From a virus, in the IMG/VR virus record IMGVR_UViG_3300036804_000178, positions 1 to 37,834 of that record: a DNA stretch of 37,834 bases; one strand, 5' to 3'. Shown here in pieces: positions 344 through 37,834 of this stretch. Under the pieces are notes generated by a model, which worked only from the letters and a program-made list of their open reading frames with translations, made no database searches and was not told where the DNA came from. Each line of letters opens with the position of its first letter. The first letter of the stretch is position 1. A program made the translations under genes and the position numbers.

Positions 344-678
344 CAGCCAATCCCCCGATGCCGCCTGCGCGCAACTGCAGGAATGCTGGCGATCGCGTGT
401 ACGGGATGCATCAGCCCGAGGTTCGCGGCGTGCCAGGCGTCGCGCACCGTCGCCAGCGCGTGGTCCGGATGGATGTCAGGATGGCGGCTGCGCAACAGGC
501 GGTAAGCGTCACGCACGAAGCCCGCGGCCTTTGGATCGTCGAACGCGTCGCCCATCCTCGCGTGCAACCCCTCGTGCTGGCTCTTATCGAAGTCTGCTTT
601 CGGCACCGGCACGCGCGCGGAGATGTGCTCTGGCTCGGGATCTGCAGCAGCAGCCTGTCCGAGGGCGCCTGCGCTCAT
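343..678 (-). CDS. Small protein between ejection genes
   Basis: A 111-residue protein of unknown function. ATG at 678 is chosen because it overlaps the upstream stop as ATGA; an in-frame GTG at 684 is also possible. The start region (MSAGALGQAAAADP) closely resembles that of the next gene (MSAGALEQVFANP). The middle holds a run of short helices rich in His and Asp (RMGDAFDDPKAAGFVRDAYRL, HPDIHPDHALATVRDAWHAA). No membrane segment or enzyme motif is seen. Tight coupling on both sides to ejection-type proteins makes a virion or virion-assembly role likely, but this is inferred only from position. Confidence 0.7.
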   Translation of the reverse strand: MSAGALGQAAAADPEPEHISARVPVPKADFDKSQHEGLHARMGDAFDDPKAAGFVRDAYRLLRSRHPDIHPDHALATVRDAWHAANLGLMHPVHAIASIPAVARRRHRGIG

Positions 679-1391
679 GTCCACCCGCTCTCGCCTGTGT
701 TGATCGCCGGGTTGCTGGCAGCGGCGGCACTGATCGTTGAGCCAGTGCCGCTGCTGCCCATCAGCGCATTCATGATGTAGGGGTTGCTGGAGAGGTTGGT
801 GAGCGAGTTGGTCGCCCCCGCGACGCCAGACCCTGTCACCCCCGCCGAGGCTGCCTGTGCCTGGCCGATGCTCGCCGCCGTGTTGGCGACGTTAGATCCC
901 GCACCCACTGCCGCGTTGGCGCCGATGCCGGTCAGCTGTGAGAGCATGTTGTAGCGGTTGTTCTGGTTCGCCCAGTAGTCGTTGAAGTAGTTCTGGTAAT
1001 TGCTCTGCGCGGCGCCCGTGGCGTAGTTCGCCGCCCCCATCAGGGCTGCGCCCGAGACGCCGAGGCCACGAGCCGCGGCGGCGTTCTGCGTGCTCAGCAG
1101 CCCCTGCTGCAGCGTGAACTGGTAGCCGGGCATATTGGCGATCTGGCTGAGATCGGTCGGTGCCGGCTGCCCGAGCGCGCCAGACTGTAGCTCGGCGGTC
1201 AGTTCGTTGCCTGCTGTCTGGCCCATCGTGGAGTAGGGCTGCGCCATCGCCTGCTCGGTCGAGAGCGCCTGCTGGTTAGTTTGTGCCGCCGCCTGCTGGC
1301 CTGACGACGAGATCAGCGCGCCACCGATCGAGCCAGCGGCGCCGACTCCGGCAGCGGCTATCCCGGCGGTTGCTGCTGCTCCGAGACCCAT
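675..1391 (-). CDS. Gly/Ala-rich DNA ejection protein (P22 gp7-like position; often named DNA transfer protein)
   Basis: A 238-residue protein rich in Ala, Gly, Asn and Gln, with a hydrophobic Gly/Ala N-terminus (residues 1-30) that could insert in a membrane. The middle carries the pattern MPGYQFTLQQGLLSTQNAAAARG followed by SGAALMGAANYATG and NYQNYFNDYW, which I recognise from a widespread family of podophage and lambdoid proteins annotated as DNA transfer or tail-associated. Such proteins are packed in the capsid and released with DNA into the cell envelope. It overlaps the downstream gene by four bases and its start at 1391 abuts the stop of the sulfotransferase-GNAT gene. Family likeness is strong; the ejection role is family knowledge. 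Confidence 0.8.
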   Translation of the reverse strand: MGLGAAATAGIAAAGVGAAGSIGGALISSSGQQAAAQTNQQALSTEQAMAQPYSTMGQTAGNELTAELQSGALGQPAPTDLSQIANMPGYQFTLQQGLLSTQNAAAARGLGVSGAALMGAANYATGAAQSNYQNYFNDYWANQNNRYNMLSQLTGIGANAAVGAGSNVANTAASIGQAQAASAGVTGSGVAGATNSLTNLSSNPYIMNALMGSSGTGSTISAAAASNPAINTGESGWT

Positions 1392-2461
1392 CAGGCTGCC
1401 TCCAACCGATAGAGCGTGCCGATCTCTTCGGCGCCGAGACGGCGGTAATAGGCGCCGAGCCGCGGACCGAGGCCCCGGTTGCCGGTGCGCATGTAGATCT
1501 GATCAACGCCTCTCGCACGCAGCGCCTCGTTCGCCGCGCGCTGCAGCCGCATGCCGAGGTTGCGGATTTCGGGCGAGGCAAAGAAGATCGTGTGCTGCGC
1601 TTCGGTGAGGTCGGGACTGTCGAACGACGGCGCGACGATGGAGAGCAAGTAGCCGAACATGCGCCCGTTGCAGCGCGCCGTCATGATCTGCAGCGCGCCG
1701 ATCTCGTAGAGCGTCTTGAGCAGCGGCAGGTTCTTGCGCTGCCAGTCGTCGGGTGCCTGGTCGGTCTGGATCAGATGCTCGGCAAACAACGCGCGGGCCT
1801 CGAGATGGGCGACGAACGTCTCGCACTGGAAGGTCACGCCGTCACCAGCGTCCACAGACACGGGCTGCATCGCCTGCACGATGCGGTGCCGCACCGTCTT
1901 GCCGAGCTTGTCGAGCTGCGGCTTGTGCGCCGTCATGTAACGGAACAGCGCCGGTACATCGATCTGCAGATTGAGGCCCGCATAGCCCTGCCACCACAGC
2001 GGATCATGCCGGTACGGCAGACAGTGCTCAAAGAGCCGCGCGCAGCCTTCCTCGGTCGCAAGGTCGCGGTAGCTGACCGACAGCACGCCGGGTACGCGTG
2101 CTTCGACCTGGTCGAGCTTGTGGTCGAGGTAATGCAGGTGCCGCTCGAGCTTGTCCGCATCGAACGCGACGGGCACCCCCAGCAGTAGGGAAGCGAGGCT
2201 CTCCTCGACCGGACGGCGGATGACGGCAACGCGCGCATCGGGGCGCACCTTCAGCAGGTAGCGCCAGAACGGCGCGGCACAGGTCTCGATGGTACCGGTC
2301 GCGGGCATCGAGAGCCACGAGCGGATGTCCTCGAGGCTGCGCAGATGGCGCACCTCCTCGTGGCCGCAGATCCAGCCGTTGTAGGAGAGAAAGCGACTGC
2401 ACCAGTAGGTGCGGCTGCGCGGCAGCGCGAAGATCACGAAGGGAGGTGCAGTGCCGCTCAT
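1391..2461 (-). CDS. Two-domain protein: sulfotransferase-like P-loop domain fused to GNAT-like acetyltransferase domain
   Basis: A 356-residue protein; ATG at 2461 overlaps the upstream stop as ATGA. Residues 7-30 (IFALPRSRTYWCSR) match the 5'-phosphosulfate-binding loop of sulfotransferases, and VIRRPVEESLASL at 80-92 matches their second PAPS contact (R...S). Residues about 210-356 look like a GNAT fold: a conserved strand pair around GRMFGYLLSIV (266-276), a helix at NLGMRLQRAANEALRARG, then YMRTGNRGLGPRLGAYYRRLGAEE, where GNATs place the last strand and helix. It sits inside the neck/ejection operon, where T7-like phages place gp13-type proteins that also have a GNAT-like fold. It may be a virion protein or modify a host or virion product. 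The substrate is unknown, and the fusion is unusual. Confidence 0.72.
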   Translation of the reverse strand: MSGTAPPFVIFALPRSRTYWCSRFLSYNGWICGHEEVRHLRSLEDIRSWLSMPATGTIETCAAPFWRYLLKVRPDARVAVIRRPVEESLASLLLGVPVAFDADKLERHLHYLDHKLDQVEARVPGVLSVSYRDLATEEGCARLFEHCLPYRHDPLWWQGYAGLNLQIDVPALFRYMTAHKPQLDKLGKTVRHRIVQAMQPVSVDAGDGVTFQCETFVAHLEARALFAEHLIQTDQAPDDWQRKNLPLLKTLYEIGALQIMTARCNGRMFGYLLSIVAPSFDSPDLTEAQHTIFFASPEIRNLGMRLQRAANEALRARGVDQIYMRTGNRGLGPRLGAYYRRLGAEEIGTLYRLEAA

Positions 2462-2709
2462 GCGGGAGGAGTTCCTGCGGCGCTCTGCAACGTCGTCACC
2501 TGCGTCTGCAGCGCCGAAACCTGCTGCTGCAGCGCATTGATGTTGTTGAGCAGCGAGAACAGGAAGCGGAAGGCAACGGGGCTCAGCGTGCCGTCCGGCG
2601 ACACGAATGGGCTGATCGGCGAGATCATGCCCTGGCTGGCATACATGCCGCCGAGCTGCGTGGTGAGCGGAATGCCGGAGCGCGGTACGATGGGCGTCGT
2701 GCCGCTCAT
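2458..2709 (-). CDS. Small coiled-coil virion-associated protein
   Basis: An 83-residue protein starting with ATG at 2709 in an ATGA overlap. The N-terminus (MSGTTPIVPRSGIPLTT) resembles those of the coat protein and tail fibre. The segment SPDGTLSPVAFRFLFSLLNN is followed by a clear coiled coil with leucine/valine heptads (INALQQQVSALQTQVTTLQ, residues about 57-75). Short phage proteins of this build usually form trimers and sit at the tail or fibre attachment. It is translationally coupled on both sides. The exact role is not known; a tail adaptor or chaperone fits best. Confidence 0.7.
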   Translation of the reverse strand: MSGTTPIVPRSGIPLTTQLGGMYASQGMISPISPFVSPDGTLSPVAFRFLFSLLNNINALQQQVSALQTQVTTLQSAAGTPPA

Positions 2710-2978
2710 GTGCAATCACCCTGCAGCATGCACTCGCCGTCGTTGTTCATCACGCGCCAGTAGGTCGCGCGCTCCGGCAGCACCGGCTCGTCGCCGTAGA
2801 AGATGCGATTGAAAAAGCCCTCCGGCAGGCTTTCCGCCATGACCCTGGCGCCATTGGCCTGTGCGTCGCACGTCGCCGGCATCACGCCATCGAAGAACGC
2901 CAGCGACGCGAGGCTGCCCGCGTGCCGCTCCATTTCGCGCACCAGACGTCGCTGCAGAGAGAGGCTGTGCATGATCAT
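2706..2978 (-). CDS. Conserved phage protein of the tail operon, unknown function
   Basis: A 90-residue protein; ATG at 2978 overlaps the stop of the gp10-like gene as ATGA, which rejects the longer open frame upstream. The N-terminal helix (LQRRLVREMERHAGSLASLAFFDG) is followed by a compact domain with three cysteines (C37, C83, C89). The pattern of a start helix, a DG..P..CD turn and a final YWR...DG strand recalls small structural proteins in other tailed phages, but I cannot name a family. Its place directly after the tail hub gene suggests a virion or assembly role. Confidence 0.65.
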   Translation of the reverse strand: MIMHSLSLQRRLVREMERHAGSLASLAFFDGVMPATCDAQANGARVMAESLPEGFFNRIFYGDEPVLPERATYWRVMNNDGECMLQGDCT

Positions 2979-4435
2979 GTCGCGCTCTTCACCACGTCGA
3001 TCCAGGCGCCGTTGAGCGTCGCCTCCCCCTGGCCCGACCACGTCAGGCGGAATACGCGGTCGCGCGCATAGCCGAGCCGGCGCCACTGGTATTGTGAGAT
3101 CGGTACCGACCAGGGATTGCTCTGCGCATCTTGCGTCAGCGGCGTGCCGAACGTGTTGCCGCCGTCGTCGGACCAGTCGAGCGTGATGCCGTCGGGCGAC
3201 AGCTGGCTGCCGTCGATCGCCGCGGTGAACCGGGGATAATGCACGCGGTTGCCGTCGTCGACGCTGTGCGGCCATGCGCGCTGGCGGATGATCGTGGTGC
3301 CCGCGTCGGTGTAGACCCGCGGGTGGATCTGCAGGATGCGCGGCCCGGTGCGGTCGCCGGCCAGCACCATGTTCTCGAAGGGGATCACCTGGGAAACTCC
3401 GGAGAGCCCGGCTGTGCAGTAAGGCAGCCAGGGCGTCGAGAGGTCGCCGTAAGTACGCTTGTGCCACATCTGCGTCGACGCATCGAACGCCCACCACGCG
3501 TTACCGGACGGGAAATAGATGCCAACCGTCTCGTGGCCGCCGATCTGGTAGGCCATGCCGATCGCGTCAGCGAGCGTGGGATAGGTGCTCCACTCGTTCT
3601 CGACGGCGAAGTTGGACACGCGTTGCGCGCCGAAGCCCTGCCCGCGCATCATCATGTTGCGACCCCAGCGGTCCTGGCTGAGCCAGTAGAGCGCGTTGTC
3701 TGCGATCACCACGCACATGAAGGAGACGCAGCCCTGCTGGAGGATGGAGGAGGGCATGCGCTGCCAGGGGAAGTCCGGCGCGCCTGAGTTGAACCAGATC
3801 TCCGCAGTCGAGTTGCCAAGGAGCCAGATGTTGTCGTGGAGAGCCGCGACGCAGACGAGATAATCGTTCCAACCTTCCTTGCCGGCGAAGTAGAGCGGGT
3901 TAAACGGTGTCAGCGCGTTGGATGTGGTTGTGTAGAAGGTCGGCGTGCCGGGCCAGTTGAAGATCAGGAATGTATCGATGTAGTCGACGCGCGAGCTGCC
4001 GTAGAATGCCGGGTCGCTGATCGGCTGCAGGCTGCCAGCCGTGAGGGCGGCAAGCGGCGCGTAGTAGCCGTTGGCCGTGCCGTCGACCAGCACCACATCC
4101 GTTTGATTGTCGCAGATCGACACGGGATAGCCGCTGTTGGAAGCGAGCGTGCCGAGCAGCACGTAGTCGCTATTGCCGCCGCCGTTCCACTTGATCACGG
4201 ACTGGCCGATGACCGCGATCACCGCGCCATTGGAAGCCTGATAGATGCCGCGCACGTAGCCCGAGAAAGTGCCGGTGTAGTCCGACTGCACGTAAAGCCC
4301 CGGCGCGGGATAATGCGAGACCGGGAACGGCGCGTCTTTCGGGTTCGGTTCCGGATATAAATTCACACAGGATTGAGCATTCGCTATAAGTCCCCTGGCC
4401 TCATACGCCCCCTGAATTAGTGGGAGTTGTGCCAT
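2975..4435 (-). CDS. P22 gp10-like tail hub / packaged DNA stabilisation protein
   Basis: A 486-residue protein close in length to P22 gp10 (472). The chosen ATG at 4435 gives MAQLPLIQGAYEARGLIANAQ, the characteristic beginning of this family (short strand, then SCVNLYPE and a YPAPGL turn). The body is a beta-rich repeat (propeller-like) sequence with many Trp, Tyr and Gly. In P22 this protein forms the hexameric tail hub under the portal/gp4 ring and keeps packaged DNA from leaking. Its place after a gp4-like gene supports the call. The open frame extends 33 codons upstream, but those residues are not family-like. The 133 bp before it (4436-4568) is one of the few gaps in this operon. Confidence 0.85.
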   Translation of the reverse strand: MAQLPLIQGAYEARGLIANAQSCVNLYPEPNPKDAPFPVSHYPAPGLYVQSDYTGTFSGYVRGIYQASNGAVIAVIGQSVIKWNGGGNSDYVLLGTLASNSGYPVSICDNQTDVVLVDGTANGYYAPLAALTAGSLQPISDPAFYGSSRVDYIDTFLIFNWPGTPTFYTTTSNALTPFNPLYFAGKEGWNDYLVCVAALHDNIWLLGNSTAEIWFNSGAPDFPWQRMPSSILQQGCVSFMCVVIADNALYWLSQDRWGRNMMMRGQGFGAQRVSNFAVENEWSTYPTLADAIGMAYQIGGHETVGIYFPSGNAWWAFDASTQMWHKRTYGDLSTPWLPYCTAGLSGVSQVIPFENMVLAGDRTGPRILQIHPRVYTDAGTTIIRQRAWPHSVDDGNRVHYPRFTAAIDGSQLSPDGITLDWSDDGGNTFGTPLTQDAQSNPWSVPISQYQWRRLGYARDRVFRLTWSGQGEATLNGAWIDVVKSAT

Positions 4436-4568
4436 TACGCTGCCACTCTCGATACGGACGCCGGCATAACCAGTAGCGGACGCGCGAAGACTTGATGTGG
4501 TCGAGGCGGAGTGCCGTCCACCTGCCAAATGCACGGCAAGTCAAATCTTCTGCCATGCATCAACCTTA

Positions 4569-33076: not shown

Positions 33077-33412
33077 ATGTGTGGCTCCATGTTGGACATC
33101 ATTCTCGGCATCTTCACAGCGTACCTCGGCGTCCTCGGCATATTCGCCGTGCTCGAGCTGATCGGTTTACCGCTTGAGTATGGAAGTCGCGGCTGGGATG
33201 CGGACGAGCGGCTCGTGGCGCGGTTCGGCCAGCCTGGCGATCTGGAAGCCTTGGATCGGTATGTCATGCCGGCTCCTGCAGAGCCCGAGCCATCGTCGCC
33301 GTTTGCCGAGGATACCAGCATGCTTGAGATCTTCGAGGCGATCCGCCACGGCGCGACCAACACGGCGTTCATGGCTGCCGACCCTGCTGCCCGGCCTGGG
33401 CGTTATCCCTGA
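33077..33412 (+). CDS. Small membrane protein
   Basis: A 111-residue protein from ATG 33077 (ATG 33089 also possible; no good ribosome site). One hydrophobic span (MLDIILGIFTAYLGVLGIFAVLEL, residues 5-28) is followed by an acidic soluble domain (GWDADERLVARFGQPGDLEA). It is the last gene of the plus-strand insert and overlaps the convergent end of the ejection gene by 44 bases. Function unknown. Confidence 0.5.
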   Translation: MCGSMLDIILGIFTAYLGVLGIFAVLELIGLPLEYGSRGWDADERLVARFGQPGDLEALDRYVMPAPAEPEPSSPFAEDTSMLEIFEAIRHGATNTAFMAADPAARPGRYP

Positions 33413-36020
33413 TGCGCTGCCCGGCCCAATAGCCGAGGAACCGCGGCAGCAACGGATTGCCGAACCGCTGCGCCTCCTCAAGCGTCCTCGAACCCAGCGT
33501 GCTGCCGAAGCGTGACGCACGTGCGCCGGCCAGCACCGCCGCTACCTCGGGGCCGTACTGGCTCAGGTATTCGTCGACGCGTTTCGGATCGAACTCATGC
33601 AGCGCGAAGCCAGTGCCTCCCACGCCGAGTGCGGTAAGCAACGGATGCGCCATGAGGAGGTTCTCTGCCGTTCCTGACGTCGCAACATCAGGCGTGCTGC
33701 CGATCAGCCCGGCGAGCTGCTGGATGCGCCGCAATCCTGCGGGATCAAAGCGGCGGAAACTGCGCCGGATATCCTGCGCGAGGCCGGGCAGCCGGATCTC
33801 CTCGGTACCGGTCAGGCCATGGCCGACCGCGCGCTCGATCGTCTTGCTGACCTTGTAGCCGTAGCGCGTGTCTCTGAACTGCTGGACGTCGCGCGGGGCA
33901 TTGCTGGGGTTGCGCTCCATAGCGCGGAACAGGATGCCGCGCAGGCGCTTGCCGTACTGCGCGATGTTGGAATCACCCATGCCCATCATGCGGTCGATCA
34001 CACCACCCTTGCGGATGAATTTCAGGAAGTCGTCACCTGAGATCTGGCCACCTCCCCGCCGCGCCATCGTCTCGATCTGGTGCTGCATCGCCTTCGACCA
34101 GCGCGATGCCGGCGTGTCCGGCACGCGCCCCAGCGGATCGTCGAACTGCCGCGCCCAGCCATTGAGATCGAATAGCTCGCGCTGGGTGGCAGGATCAGCG
34201 CGCAGCGACATACGCCTGGCGATCGCCTCCATGCGCTGGCCGATCTCGTTCTGGAACCTGCGCAACTGCGTCGCGTCGAAATGCCCCTCGCCGCCGACGC
34301 CCATGTCCTGGCGCAGCATCGTGGCGATCGCCTCGCGCTGGCGTGCAGCGAGCTTCGCCGCGCCCGACAGCGGCAGCAGCCGCGAGAGCTGCTCAAGGCG
34401 CTGGTAGGTGCCGCCCCTGATCTGGCCGAGCGAGAGCGGAATGCCGAGCCGGTCGGCGGTTCGTGTCACTGCCTCGCGTCCGCCGCGCAAGAGTGCCCCA
34501 GCGCCCGGCACCAGCACGTTGAGCGCAGCCCCGCCCAGCGCGCCCGTCGTACCGTAGCGGTCCTCTCCGGTGCCTCCTACCGTGAGCAGATCGGTGCCCC
34601 CTCCGGCGATGGCGCCCGCAGCGGCCCGTGGCAGCGCAAAGCGCCCGGCCCGTGCCAAGCGTCCTGCGCCCTGCAGGAAAGGCGCGGCAGCGGTATAGCC
34701 CTCTGCAGCCATCTCTATGGGCCGCAGCAGGGGGGCCGTGAGCAGCACGTTGCCGACGTTCTCGGCGACCTGCGCGGGACGGTCGGAGCCGTACTGCCGG
34801 CGATAGGCTGCTGTGTTCGCTGCAGTCTGCGCCTGCTCCGCGGCGATGTCAGGCGGAGGCGCGCCGCCCACCCAGTTGCCGAAGCGGTTGAGCGTCTGCT
34901 CGACGTTGCGGCCCGACTGCACCAGCCCGGCACCCAGCTCCTGCAGAAGCGGGACATTCATCAGGTAGTTGTTGGCCGGCGACGTGGGCGCGCCCTGCAT
35001 GCCCGGCGTCACCATCGCCTGAATCGGGTTGTAGACGTTGCGCTGCACGAAAGGCGGCATCCAGCTCGGCGCAGCAGGCATCGGTGCAGGAGGCGGAGCC
35101 GGGGCCCCAGGCGCAGGGGTTGGCGTCGGAGCCTGCGGCGCAGGGGCTGCTTGTGCCGGCGAGACCATCTGGACCGGCGGAATGGAGGGCGGCATCTGGG
35201 GAGGTGCCGCTGCGGGTTGTGCGGCGGCGACAGCCGGCGCGGGTGCGGTTGGCTCGGGAGGCGGGGGAGCCGCTGGGCCAGGAGCGCCCGTGCCGGCAGC
35301 GATGCCCACCTGGGGTGCGGCAGGAGCACTGGGAGGCGCCCCAAAGATGCCAGGAAGATGCTGTTCGGACAGCGCCGGGCCTGCAGCCGCAGCGGTCGCG
35401 GGAGGCGCCTTCTCGCCAAAGATCCCGGGCAGCTGGTCCGATGCGTGGACGCCGGGCGCAGTAACTGTGACGGAGATGCCGCCTTGTGCCGCGCTTCCCT
35501 CACCACCCTGCTTGCCCTGCGCCGACGTGCCGCCTGGCGGGTTATAGGTCTCGCTGCCCGGCTGGCCGGGGGGTGTTTGGGGACTGTAGGAGGGGCCGAC
35601 ATCGACCGACGCAGCCGGGGCCTCGGATGCCTGAGCGCTGCCGATCGGGTTGACGCTCTTGAACGCCGTCAGGATGCGTCCCGTGTAGCTCTGGCGCGGG
35701 TCGGAGGGCGCGCCGTTATAGAGCTGCAGCGCGGCGGGGACGTTGCCGCCGGTCTGCTGCAACAGATCGTGCAGATAGTGTGCGGCACCATACACCGATG
35801 AGTCCGAATTGCTGACATCGACGCCGTAGCGCTGCGCGGTCTGCGGCATAAACTGCATGATGCCCTGCGCGCCGGCAGCGGACGTGATGACGCGGCCCTG
35901 CGCGTCGAACGTGCGCCCCCCGCTTTCGACCGTAGCGACCGAGTGCAGCAGTGCGGGATCGACGTTCCACACTTGGCCTGCGTTGTTGAAGACGGTCGGG
36001 ATGCTGGTCGTCGTGCCCAT
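33369..36020 (-). CDS. Large ejection protein with lytic transglycosylase (SLT) domain, P22 gp16-like position
   Basis: An 883-residue protein. Residues 1-110 are a soluble lytic transglycosylase domain: VATVESGGRTF with catalytic E32, then GAQGIMQFMP (50-59) and YLHDLLQQTGGNVPAALQLYNGAP. A long Pro/Ala-rich linker (about 120-320) separates it from a helical C-terminal region (NVEQTLNRFGNWVGG to the end) with hydrophobic, possibly membrane-active segments (AAGAIAGGGTDLLTVGG). In podophages such proteins leave the virion with the DNA, cut the peptidoglycan and form a channel. It overlaps the upstream ejection gene (TGATG) and ends in the inserted plus-strand region. Confidence 0.85.
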   Translation of the reverse strand: MGTTTSIPTVFNNAGQVWNVDPALLHSVATVESGGRTFDAQGRVITSAAGAQGIMQFMPQTAQRYGVDVSNSDSSVYGAAHYLHDLLQQTGGNVPAALQLYNGAPSDPRQSYTGRILTAFKSVNPIGSAQASEAPAASVDVGPSYSPQTPPGQPGSETYNPPGGTSAQGKQGGEGSAAQGGISVTVTAPGVHASDQLPGIFGEKAPPATAAAAGPALSEQHLPGIFGAPPSAPAAPQVGIAAGTGAPGPAAPPPPEPTAPAPAVAAAQPAAAPPQMPPSIPPVQMVSPAQAAPAPQAPTPTPAPGAPAPPPAPMPAAPSWMPPFVQRNVYNPIQAMVTPGMQGAPTSPANNYLMNVPLLQELGAGLVQSGRNVEQTLNRFGNWVGGAPPPDIAAEQAQTAANTAAYRRQYGSDRPAQVAENVGNVLLTAPLLRPIEMAAEGYTAAAPFLQGAGRLARAGRFALPRAAAGAIAGGGTDLLTVGGTGEDRYGTTGALGGAALNVLVPGAGALLRGGREAVTRTADRLGIPLSLGQIRGGTYQRLEQLSRLLPLSGAAKLAARQREAIATMLRQDMGVGGEGHFDATQLRRFQNEIGQRMEAIARRMSLRADPATQRELFDLNGWARQFDDPLGRVPDTPASRWSKAMQHQIETMARRGGGQISGDDFLKFIRKGGVIDRMMGMGDSNIAQYGKRLRGILFRAMERNPSNAPRDVQQFRDTRYGYKVSKTIERAVGHGLTGTEEIRLPGLAQDIRRSFRRFDPAGLRRIQQLAGLIGSTPDVATSGTAENLLMAHPLLTALGVGGTGFALHEFDPKRVDEYLSQYGPEVAAVLAGARASRFGSTLGSRTLEEAQRFGNPLLPRFLGYWAGQRIRDNAQAGQQGRQP

Positions 36021-37834
36021 CAGACGCCGCCTGCGCCCGAGATGAAGCCAGTCGGGCTGACAGAGAGCCAGCCCATGCGCCGGGCATAGAGCACGTTCCT
36101 CGTGAACTGGTCGGCATCAGCCGGGCTGGCTGCTTTCATCTTCTGGCCGTAGTCCCGCTGCTCCTGCGGCGTCATGTCAGAGAGCCAGTAAACACGGGGA
36201 TCGAACTGACCTCCGGTCTGTGGGTCCGTGTCGTTGAAGGTCTGCTGCCACTGGCCGAACTGCGCCGGCCCCCAACCGGCTCGCTGCGCCTGGAGCCATG
36301 CGTTGTTCATCACCTGGATTGCGGTCTGATTGCCGGTCAGTGTGTGGATCAGAAGCCGGCGCCCCGCGTCTGACATCTCGACCGTTGGCGTCGAAGCCTC
36401 GGTCAGTTCTTGCCGCGCGTCAGTGATCGCCGACGAGTTGCCGAGCGCCTTGAGCGTTGTCTGGCCGAGCAGCGAGCTGTCTTTCTTGAACGCCTCACGC
36501 GCCTGCTGCGGGTCGGTGAAGTTATAGTCAGTCGTGTCGCCGAGGTGCAGGAACTGCACCACCTTATTGAGTGTCGAGGCGGTCTGCGCGCCGATGCCGC
36601 CCTGGAAGCCCGGCGTCGCCTCCTCGGCGCGCATATCTGCGAGGATCGCTTTGGTCTGCGGCACCTGCTGCACCTGCTGCTGCAGTGACGTCAGCTGCGC
36701 CTGCGACTGAGTGCCAGCCGCCGTCTGCTCGGCCTGCACTTGCGGTGCTGCCGTTACGCCGACGCCCCCGTAGATGCCGCCTGTGGGCGGCGGGGGCGGC
36801 GGCTGCGCCCACGCAGGCGTGCCACCCCCCGGAGCAGGAGAGGAAGCGCCAGCGGGCGCTGGCGGCGTTGTCGCGGGAGGCGCCGGGGTGCCGCCGCGGG
36901 GCGGCAGCTGCTCGGGCGTCACCGCCGTCTGCCAGTAGGGGCTGTTGGGCGGTGGCGCAGCGCCAGTGATCGGGCGCCCCGAGCTATCTACGCCACGGTA
37001 GTTCGGGTCCGGTTGTCCGTTCGGGAGAAAGCCTGGCGCTGGTGCGCCGCCCGCTGGGGCACCAGCAGGCGCTGGCAGCGGCGTGCCAGTGACCGGAGCG
37101 CCCGTGCCGGTGGCCCCCGCTGTAGCTCCCGTAGTGCGCGGCGTAGGCGCAGCCGTGCCGACTGCGGGTGTACCGGGATAGGCGCCGGTATAGCCCGGAC
37201 GGAAGGTGTTGTTGCTGTAAGGGCCGCTCGTGCTGGCAGGCGCTGTGTTGATGTTGGGATTGAGCTGCCGCATCGCCGGGTTGTTCGCCAGCAGCTGCAC
37301 CGCTTGCGCATGCGGCATCTGGATGATCTGGTTGTTGCCGATGTTCACATTGTCGATCGCCGTCGCCTCGCCCGGCGTCATCGTATACGGCACCGCCGCA
37401 CCCGGCCTCGGATAGCCAGGCAGATACGGGTTGCCCCCGACATAGAGCGTGCCGCCGCGGTAATTCACACCCGTCGAGGCCTGCGTCGTCGCCTCGTTCT
37501 GCTCTTTCGCGCTCTGGTTCATAAAAAACCAACCACGCGCCAGGTCGAGCGGATTCATCCCTGGCTGGTTGATCTGGCTGCGCGCCCAATCGGCTTCTAA
37601 TTGGTTGATAACCCCGCCCTTCAGGGCACTTGTCACGGCACCGTTCAGGTCATCAGCCGTAACGCCGCCAGTGGGATCAGCCTGCGTGGCGTTCTTTTCG
37701 CCCTGTAGCAGGATCGGCGTGATGAGGCCCGACAACGCGTTCATCTGCGACAATTTCGCGCCGAGGGCAGCGGTCGTGCCTGCGCCCTGCGCTGCCTGCG
37801 CTTGGCCGGCCTGCTGCATCGCTGGCCCCATGCC
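36020..37834 (-). CDS. Large ejection/internal virion protein, main part (continues at position 343)
   Basis: The body of the 676-residue protein whose start is at 343 after circle closure. It contains a Pro/Gly/Thr-rich linker (about residues 280-440 of the full protein; TPLPAPAGAPAGGAPAPG and similar), followed by a helical C-terminal part (QEQRDYGQKMKAASPADADQ, FTRNVLYARRMGWLS). A Tyr/Gly-rich patch (RGGTLYVGGNPYLPGYPRPG) lies near the front. No enzyme motif is seen. Its stop overlaps the start of the SLT ejection gene (TGATG). A role as an internal ejection protein is inferred from its place between the two other ejection proteins. Confidence 0.72.
   Translation of the reverse strand, partial: GMGPAMQQAGQAQAAQGAGTTAALGAKLSQMNALSGLITPILLQGEKNATQADPTGGVTADDLNGAVTSALKGGVINQLEADWARSQINQPGMNPLDLARGWFFMNQSAKEQNEATTQASTGVNYRGGTLYVGGNPYLPGYPRPGAAVPYTMTPGEATAIDNVNIGNNQIIQMPHAQAVQLLANNPAMRQLNPNINTAPASTSGPYSNNTFRPGYTGAYPGTPAVGTAAPTPRTTGATAGATGTGAPVTGTPLPAPAGAPAGGAPAPGFLPNGQPDPNYRGVDSSGRPITGAAPPPNSPYWQTAVTPEQLPPRGGTPAPPATTPPAPAGASSPAPGGGTPAWAQPPPPPPTGGIYGGVGVTAAPQVQAEQTAAGTQSQAQLTSLQQQVQQVPQTKAILADMRAEEATPGFQGGIGAQTASTLNKVVQFLHLGDTTDYNFTDPQQAREAFKKDSSLLGQTTLKALGNSSAITDARQELTEASTPTVEMSDAGRRLLIHTLTGNQTAIQVMNNAWLQAQRAGWGPAQFGQWQQTFNDTDPQTGGQFDPRVYWLSDMTPQEQRDYGQKMKAASPADADQFTRNVLYARRMGWLSVSPTGFISGAGGV
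37708..37834. repeat. Terminal direct repeat (right copy), circular-closure overlap
   Basis: Identical to 1-127. It permits the window to be closed to a circle of 37,707 bp, with the reading frame at 37831 continuing into 343. Confidence 0.95.

Follow-up and report, generated by a model that had tools for sequence, protein, structure and literature searches.

A gene of the DNA stretch analysed here (the window: positions 1 to 37,834, the full 37,834 nucleotides, of IMG/VR virus record IMGVR_UViG_3300036804_000178) encodes a sulfotransferase-type domain followed by a GNAT-fold domain, and is coupled to the gene of a DNA ejection protein. The fusion is real and conserved and, so far as the literature searched goes, undescribed: no account of a phage sulfotransferase-acetyltransferase fusion was found in that literature, which included few subscription journals. 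Its parts and its position (the slot directly before the ejection gene) are of known kinds, and within the same literature it is the combination that is new. Judging from position and by analogy, the protein probably has a part in building or arming the apparatus of injection. The specific reading we favour, which is tentative, is that of a two-domain late protein in which a PAPS-dependent sulfotransferase-type domain stands ahead of a slot GNAT, and which acts on the phage's own ejection apparatus.

The fusion gene, its operon and its relatives

The preliminary description of this DNA, made from the sequence alone, had placed the gene in a tail/ejection operon, and the ejection gene was indeed found directly downstream (Table 1). 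The ATG of the fusion overlaps the stop codon of the upstream gene by 4 nt (ATGA), and the ATG of the ejection gene overlaps the TGA stop of the fusion by 1 nt (TGATG). The start codon of the fusion is backed by its relatives, whose alignments begin at the same place. The late operon lies on the minus strand and passes through the ends of the record; its order is terminase, portal, scaffold, major head protein, adaptors, Hc3, two small proteins, the fusion and the PHROG 598 ejection protein, followed by a 113-aa protein, the 676-aa gp15-like protein, the 883-aa transglycosylase-domain protein and the tail fibre region. Since the ends of the record are identical over 127 bases (a direct repeat, 1-127 being the same as 37708-37834), the assembly looks circular, with a phage genome of roughly 37.7 kb. 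The phage is of the podovirus type, i.e. short-tailed.

Table 1. Coordinates of the fusion gene, its domains and the neighbouring late genes in the window
Feature	Coordinates	Strand	Remarks
Fused sulfotransferase-GNAT gene	1391..2461	minus	356 aa, ATG to TGA
N-terminal sulfotransferase-fold domain	1862..2461	minus	residues 1-200
Linker, low predicted confidence	1844..1861	minus	residues about 200-206
C-terminal GNAT domain	1394..1843	minus	residues 207-356; NGRMFGY hairpin, CoA-loop G303, Y339
PHROG 598 'DNA ejection' protein, P22 gp7-like	675..1391	minus	N-terminus MGLGA; gene directly after the fusion
84-aa protein	2458..2712	minus	C-terminal coiled-coil-like repeat; upstream of the fusion
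Head closure Hc3 (PHROG 578)	2975..4441	minus	role and operon order as P22 gp10
883-aa transglycosylase-domain internal virion protein, gp16-like	33369..36020	minus	
676-aa gp15-like protein	36020..37834, continued from window 343-1 across the circular junction	minus	

According to the preliminary description, no common phage protein was known with this pair of domains. For cultured phages this held, as no full-length match to the fusion was found in 50,697 records; among uncultured phages the fusion proved to be common. The search for the two-domain order in other phages, which that description had put forward as a check, returned 168 complete fused ORFs, corresponding to 97 distinct full-length proteins besides that of the window and to about 40 clusters at 70% identity. 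With 168 intact ORFs across many contigs, a frameshift, a misassembly or a wrong start was rejected as the origin of the fusion. The lowest identity to the window's protein was 44%, and the lowest for any pair was 35% per half. The distances between N-terminal halves correlated with those between C-terminal halves at 0.91 (the highest value in 500 permutations was 0.18), which indicates that the two halves have been inherited together. Median dN/dS over 394 pairs was 0.11 for the N-half and 0.065 for the C-half, values that denote purifying selection. In one scan, relatives were encoded in 150 IMG/VR stretches, whose hosts are mostly without assignment. Within the order to which Azospirillum rugosum belongs, 2 of 82 genomes also carry the fusion, apparently in prophages, and among 385 class-level genomes it was found in a single A. 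rugosum genome, already included in the order-level two. These counts, together with a GC3 of both halves equal to that of the phage core genes, led us to discard a recent capture from a bacterium.

Both halves have stand-alone relatives. Those of the N-half are encoded by Bradleyvirinae phages of Pseudomonas, between the DNA ligase and exonuclease genes; those of the C-half occur in PfAn1, in Zobellviridae and in phages like them, immediately ahead of the internal virion proteins, with some located elsewhere. By sequence comparison, the C-half of the fusion is homologous to the stand-alone slot GNATs, and the N-half has its homologue in a phage sulfotransferase-like protein that stands alone. 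Adjacent but separate N and C genes were absent from the loci examined, a sample skewed to the fused family, and three single-domain C matches (L199, L130 and L175) run into the edge of their sequence stretch.

Folds and ligand-site residues of the two halves

Both motifs quoted in the preliminary description, LPRSRTYW and VIRRPVEESLASL, lie in the 356-aa ORF (2461..1391, minus strand). The first of them, residues 13-20, resembles a 5′-phosphosulfate loop, and R83...S91 resembles a 3′-phosphate site; H34, E36, D45 and E59-T60 are conserved as well. Residues 8-160 matched PHROG 10855 (E = 7e-7), and relatives of the fusion matched Sulfotransfer_3 of Pfam (best 2.9e-7; 16 of the 29 members of the family alignment). 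By itself the window's protein stays under the Pfam cut-offs (Sulfotransfer_4, E = 0.2), so that the domain assignment rests on the relatives and on structure prediction. An AlphaFold2 model of the N-half alone (pLDDT 84.7, pTM 0.82) had as its best PDB match Cpz8 with PAP (Z = 11.1), with TPST1/2 (10.3), SgdX2 (10.3) and NDST1 (9.9) among further matches. P-loop kinases trail by about 1.5 Z (9.6 versus 11.1); as this margin is small, the sulfotransferase call leans also on the motifs and on Pfam. A P-loop kinase was judged the less likely identity on the grounds of these lower fold scores, by the same small margin, and of the lack of a GK[ST] Walker A motif.

When the 98 fused sequences were compared, P14, R17, W20, H34, D45, E59, T60, R83 and S91 were found in all of them, R15 and R82 in 97, and S16 in 95, such that the loop P14 R15 S16 (R17) T/S18 W20 is kept at 97-100%. 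This loop is of the sulfotransferase type (PKSGTTW / PRSGTT) except at position 17, where Gly is replaced by Arg. The predicted 3′-phosphate-binding Arg and Ser, R83 and S91 (98 of 98), are 8 residues apart, the same spacing as that of the corresponding pair in the 3′-phosphate site of SULT enzymes. The N-half is thereby predicted, from sequence and model together, to be a sulfotransferase-type P-loop fold with a putative PAPS site, in agreement with the sulfotransferase-like domain proposed earlier.

The GNAT outline perceived earlier in the C-terminal half was likewise borne out. Residues 225-353 matched the 'acetyltransferase' PHROG 1249 (E = 7.5e-9), relatives reached Acetyltransf_1 of Pfam at 2.5e-4, and the model of this half matched GNATs with a best Z of 15.6 (rmsd 2.3-2.7 over 131-144 residues; RimI, 15.2). 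Aligned with the PHROG 1249 slot GNATs, the C-half gave an hhalign probability of 99.2% (1.4e-19), and its profile matched the GNATs of PfAn1, VpV262, 275E43-1 and PM85 at 1e-8 to 1e-14; the PM85 gene lies outside the slot, upstream of the head-tail adaptor/portal gene. R263, G266, R267, M268, F269, Y271, G303, G332, R341 and G343 occur in 98 of the 98 fused sequences. The pyrophosphate loop reads (P/R)-G-L-G-(L/M)-(K/R) versus the canonical (Q/R)-x-x-G-x-(G/A): G303 is invariant, yet 80% of the sequences have P at the first position and 94% have K/R at the last. Given this degenerate loop, the use of acetyl-CoA is doubtful, and the C-half is classed as a GNAT-fold domain only.

AlphaFold2 modelling of the whole fusion, run from a 29-sequence alignment, gave a mean pLDDT of 86.8 and a pTM of 0.59, with a weak linker near residues 200-205, a result to be expected when the orientation of two domains to each other is uncertain. 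Sequence matches in the PDB to a designed helix bundle and to TnpB were short and were set aside as chance. Structure prediction, another check suggested in the preliminary description, thus recovered both folds, and the PAPS-site residues are near-invariant, though the GNAT loop is degenerate; the sulfotransferase half looks better preserved than the GNAT half.

The slot before the ejection gene

An ejection-protein profile identified the ejection protein directly downstream of the fusion in 75 of 84 loci; among the remaining ones, the four inspected have an Ala/Gly-rich protein of the MGLGA type at that place, and three are contig ends. The slot was also viewed in reverse, from 80 IMG/VR loci found via the ejection protein. 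It was occupied there by GNATs of the PHROG 1249 type (13 loci), a second GNAT family (17), a SET-domain protein (20), a 147-aa protein (21) and a few others. The SET-domain protein (L218:2057-2881 and 19 related loci; PF00856, E = 1.2e-8) is encoded directly before the ejection gene, and its N-terminal part is related to short tail-fibre/adhesin PHROGs. The 147-aa protein belongs to another lineage (L250:3550-3990 and 20 related loci) and matched PHROG 21390 and no enzyme. The second GNAT family matched P22 gp14 (1.1e-13), JC1 gp63 (5e-9) and Acetyltransf_3 of Pfam (6e-5); this profile link, made through the slot GNAT family of L220:3411-3878, suggests that P22 gp14 (DUF2824) is GNAT-like. 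Some slot GNATs are classed by PHROGs among morons (phrog_4470). In the Bcep22-like phage JC1, the second gene beyond the slot GNAT is annotated as PAPS reductase (gp65, L201:3868-4590), perhaps by coincidence; such a gene lies there in Bcep22-like phages and is another PAPS-linked one in this part of the operon.

The order of genes in P22 is head closure gp10, needle gp26, gp14, ejection gp7, gp20 and gp16, and the ejection profile finds P22 gp7 at 1.1e-5. Because the order is alike (Hc3-26-14-7-20-16) and gp7 is matched, the fusion can be said to occupy the position of P22 gene 14. The ejection proteins adjoining the fusion start with Met-Gly in 89 of the 91 cases in which the downstream gene is present, and those beside other slot proteins mostly with MP, MS, MT, MA or MV. 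The Met-Gly start may reflect nothing other than the common descent of one lineage. GNAT-fold acyltransferases are known to have N-terminal glycines among their targets and, as Met-Gly leaves such a glycine exposed, the GNAT half of the fusion may acylate it. A broader proposal, that the protein in the slot is devoted to modifying the ejection machinery post-translationally, by a chemistry that is lineage-specific (acyl for the GNATs, methyl for the SET protein, sulfo plus acyl for the fusion), with the GNAT half acylating the N-terminal Gly of its neighbour, is a long shot.

Possible roles and comparison with known systems

In the reading we favour, the GNAT half would, during assembly, bind the adjoining ejection protein (or a different partner inside the capsid) or modify it at its N-terminus. 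The sulfotransferase half would use PAPS as donor to place sulfuryl groups on a phage protein belonging to that complex; the fusion would act late, in the producing cell, and would not have to be packaged. Such late action on the ejection complex is suggested by the unvarying place of the gene, the annotation of P22 gp14 as a morphogenesis protein, the earlier suggestion concerning T7 gp13 (PMC6775973) and the absence of the JC1 GNAT from virions. The folds, the near-invariance of the PAPS-site residues, the coupling to the ejection gene and the stable co-inheritance of the halves are consistent with this assembly enzyme; the degenerate GNAT loop, R17 in place of Gly, the kinases close in Z and a slot role that goes by position speak against it.

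The location of the gene within the ejection-protein operon, coupled to the ejection gene, would also suit an enzyme that is itself packaged in the virion, ejected with the gp7/20/16-like proteins and active on host proteins or the cell envelope upon entry, and there are known precedents for packaged enzymes, T4 Alt among them. This possibility, in essence that of the preliminary description, seems unlikely to us: in JC1, the slot GNAT gp63 was absent from CsCl-purified virion proteins while its neighbour gp64 was present (PMC9144972), a weak absence, since gp63 is of the P22 gp14-like family and one proteome is concerned. The degenerate CoA loop might point instead to a structural morphogenesis factor, whose GNAT half would serve the ejection proteins as a chaperone or scaffold without catalysis, and whose sulfotransferase half would be an extra module for binding or regulation. 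Morphogenesis is also the annotation of P22 gp14, and the fact that unrelated proteins also fill the slot, one of them with no enzyme match, suggests a role in assembly over a single chemistry. However, the PAPS-site residues and R263, NGRMF, Q307 and R341 have been retained over deep divergence, which fits ligand sites, and we give this structural role a low probability. Quite improbable is a moron-type late enzyme of host takeover, which would modify a host surface polysaccharide or metabolite with no tie to ejection; the gene setting of the stand-alone N-half relatives in Bradleyvirinae and the phrog_4470 classification agree with it, but adjacency to the ejection gene is fixed over the roughly 40 clusters, unlike in typical morons, and no membrane segment or signal peptide was seen in the fusion by inspection.

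Through its domain with a conserved PAPS site, the fusion offers a chemical way in (by sulfation, intact mass or PAP binding) to the role of the slot proteins, which include the long-known P22 gp14 and T7 gp13, encoded beside ejection proteins. If the assembly-enzyme reading is true, the fusion would also link a phage sulfotransferase to virion morphogenesis.

Among known systems, the PHROG 1249-type slot GNATs (PfAn1, VpV262 ORFS) are homologous to the C-half and occupy the same slot by internal virion proteins, but, unlike the fusion, have no sulfotransferase half; that of VpV262 retains a canonical RxxGxA loop, whereas the loop of the fusion is degenerate. The cobavirus/SIO1 GNAT pc40 is alike by position, and the cobavirus authors had earlier likened their slot GNAT to T7 gp13 on the same basis (PMC6775973). 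T7 gp13 (PF11090, internal virion protein A), to whose kind the preliminary description ascribed a GNAT-like fold, matches PF11090/PHROG 308 only; it resembles the fusion in lying ahead of gp14-gp15-gp16. P22 gp14 (PF11039), annotated as 'head morphogenesis', has the same operon position, between the head closure/needle genes and gp7, but is a single-domain protein of 151 aa. Comparison of the C-half with T7 gp13 or P22 gp14, by sequence or by profile, detected no relation; homology to T7 gp13 is therefore unsupported by these comparisons, and the slot role is transferred by position only. Nor is JC1 gp63 homologous to the C-half, as it groups with the P22 gp14-like family. On the sulfotransferase side, the PHROG 10855 'hydrolase' proteins of Bradleyvirinae (Ab18 gp36, PaMx11) are homologous to the N-half (profile E = 3e-16), and both have the PRS-x-T-x-W loop and the R...S spacing of 8, but the former are stand-alone, are encoded away from the ejection genes, and read PRSATTW where the fusion reads PRSRTxW. 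TPST1/2, Cpz8, SgdX2 and NDST1 differ from the fusion in having Gly in the loop in place of its invariant Arg17, show about 11-17% identity and have no GNAT partner; the predicted fold, the PAPS loop and the 3′-phosphate-site pattern are what they have in common with the N-half.
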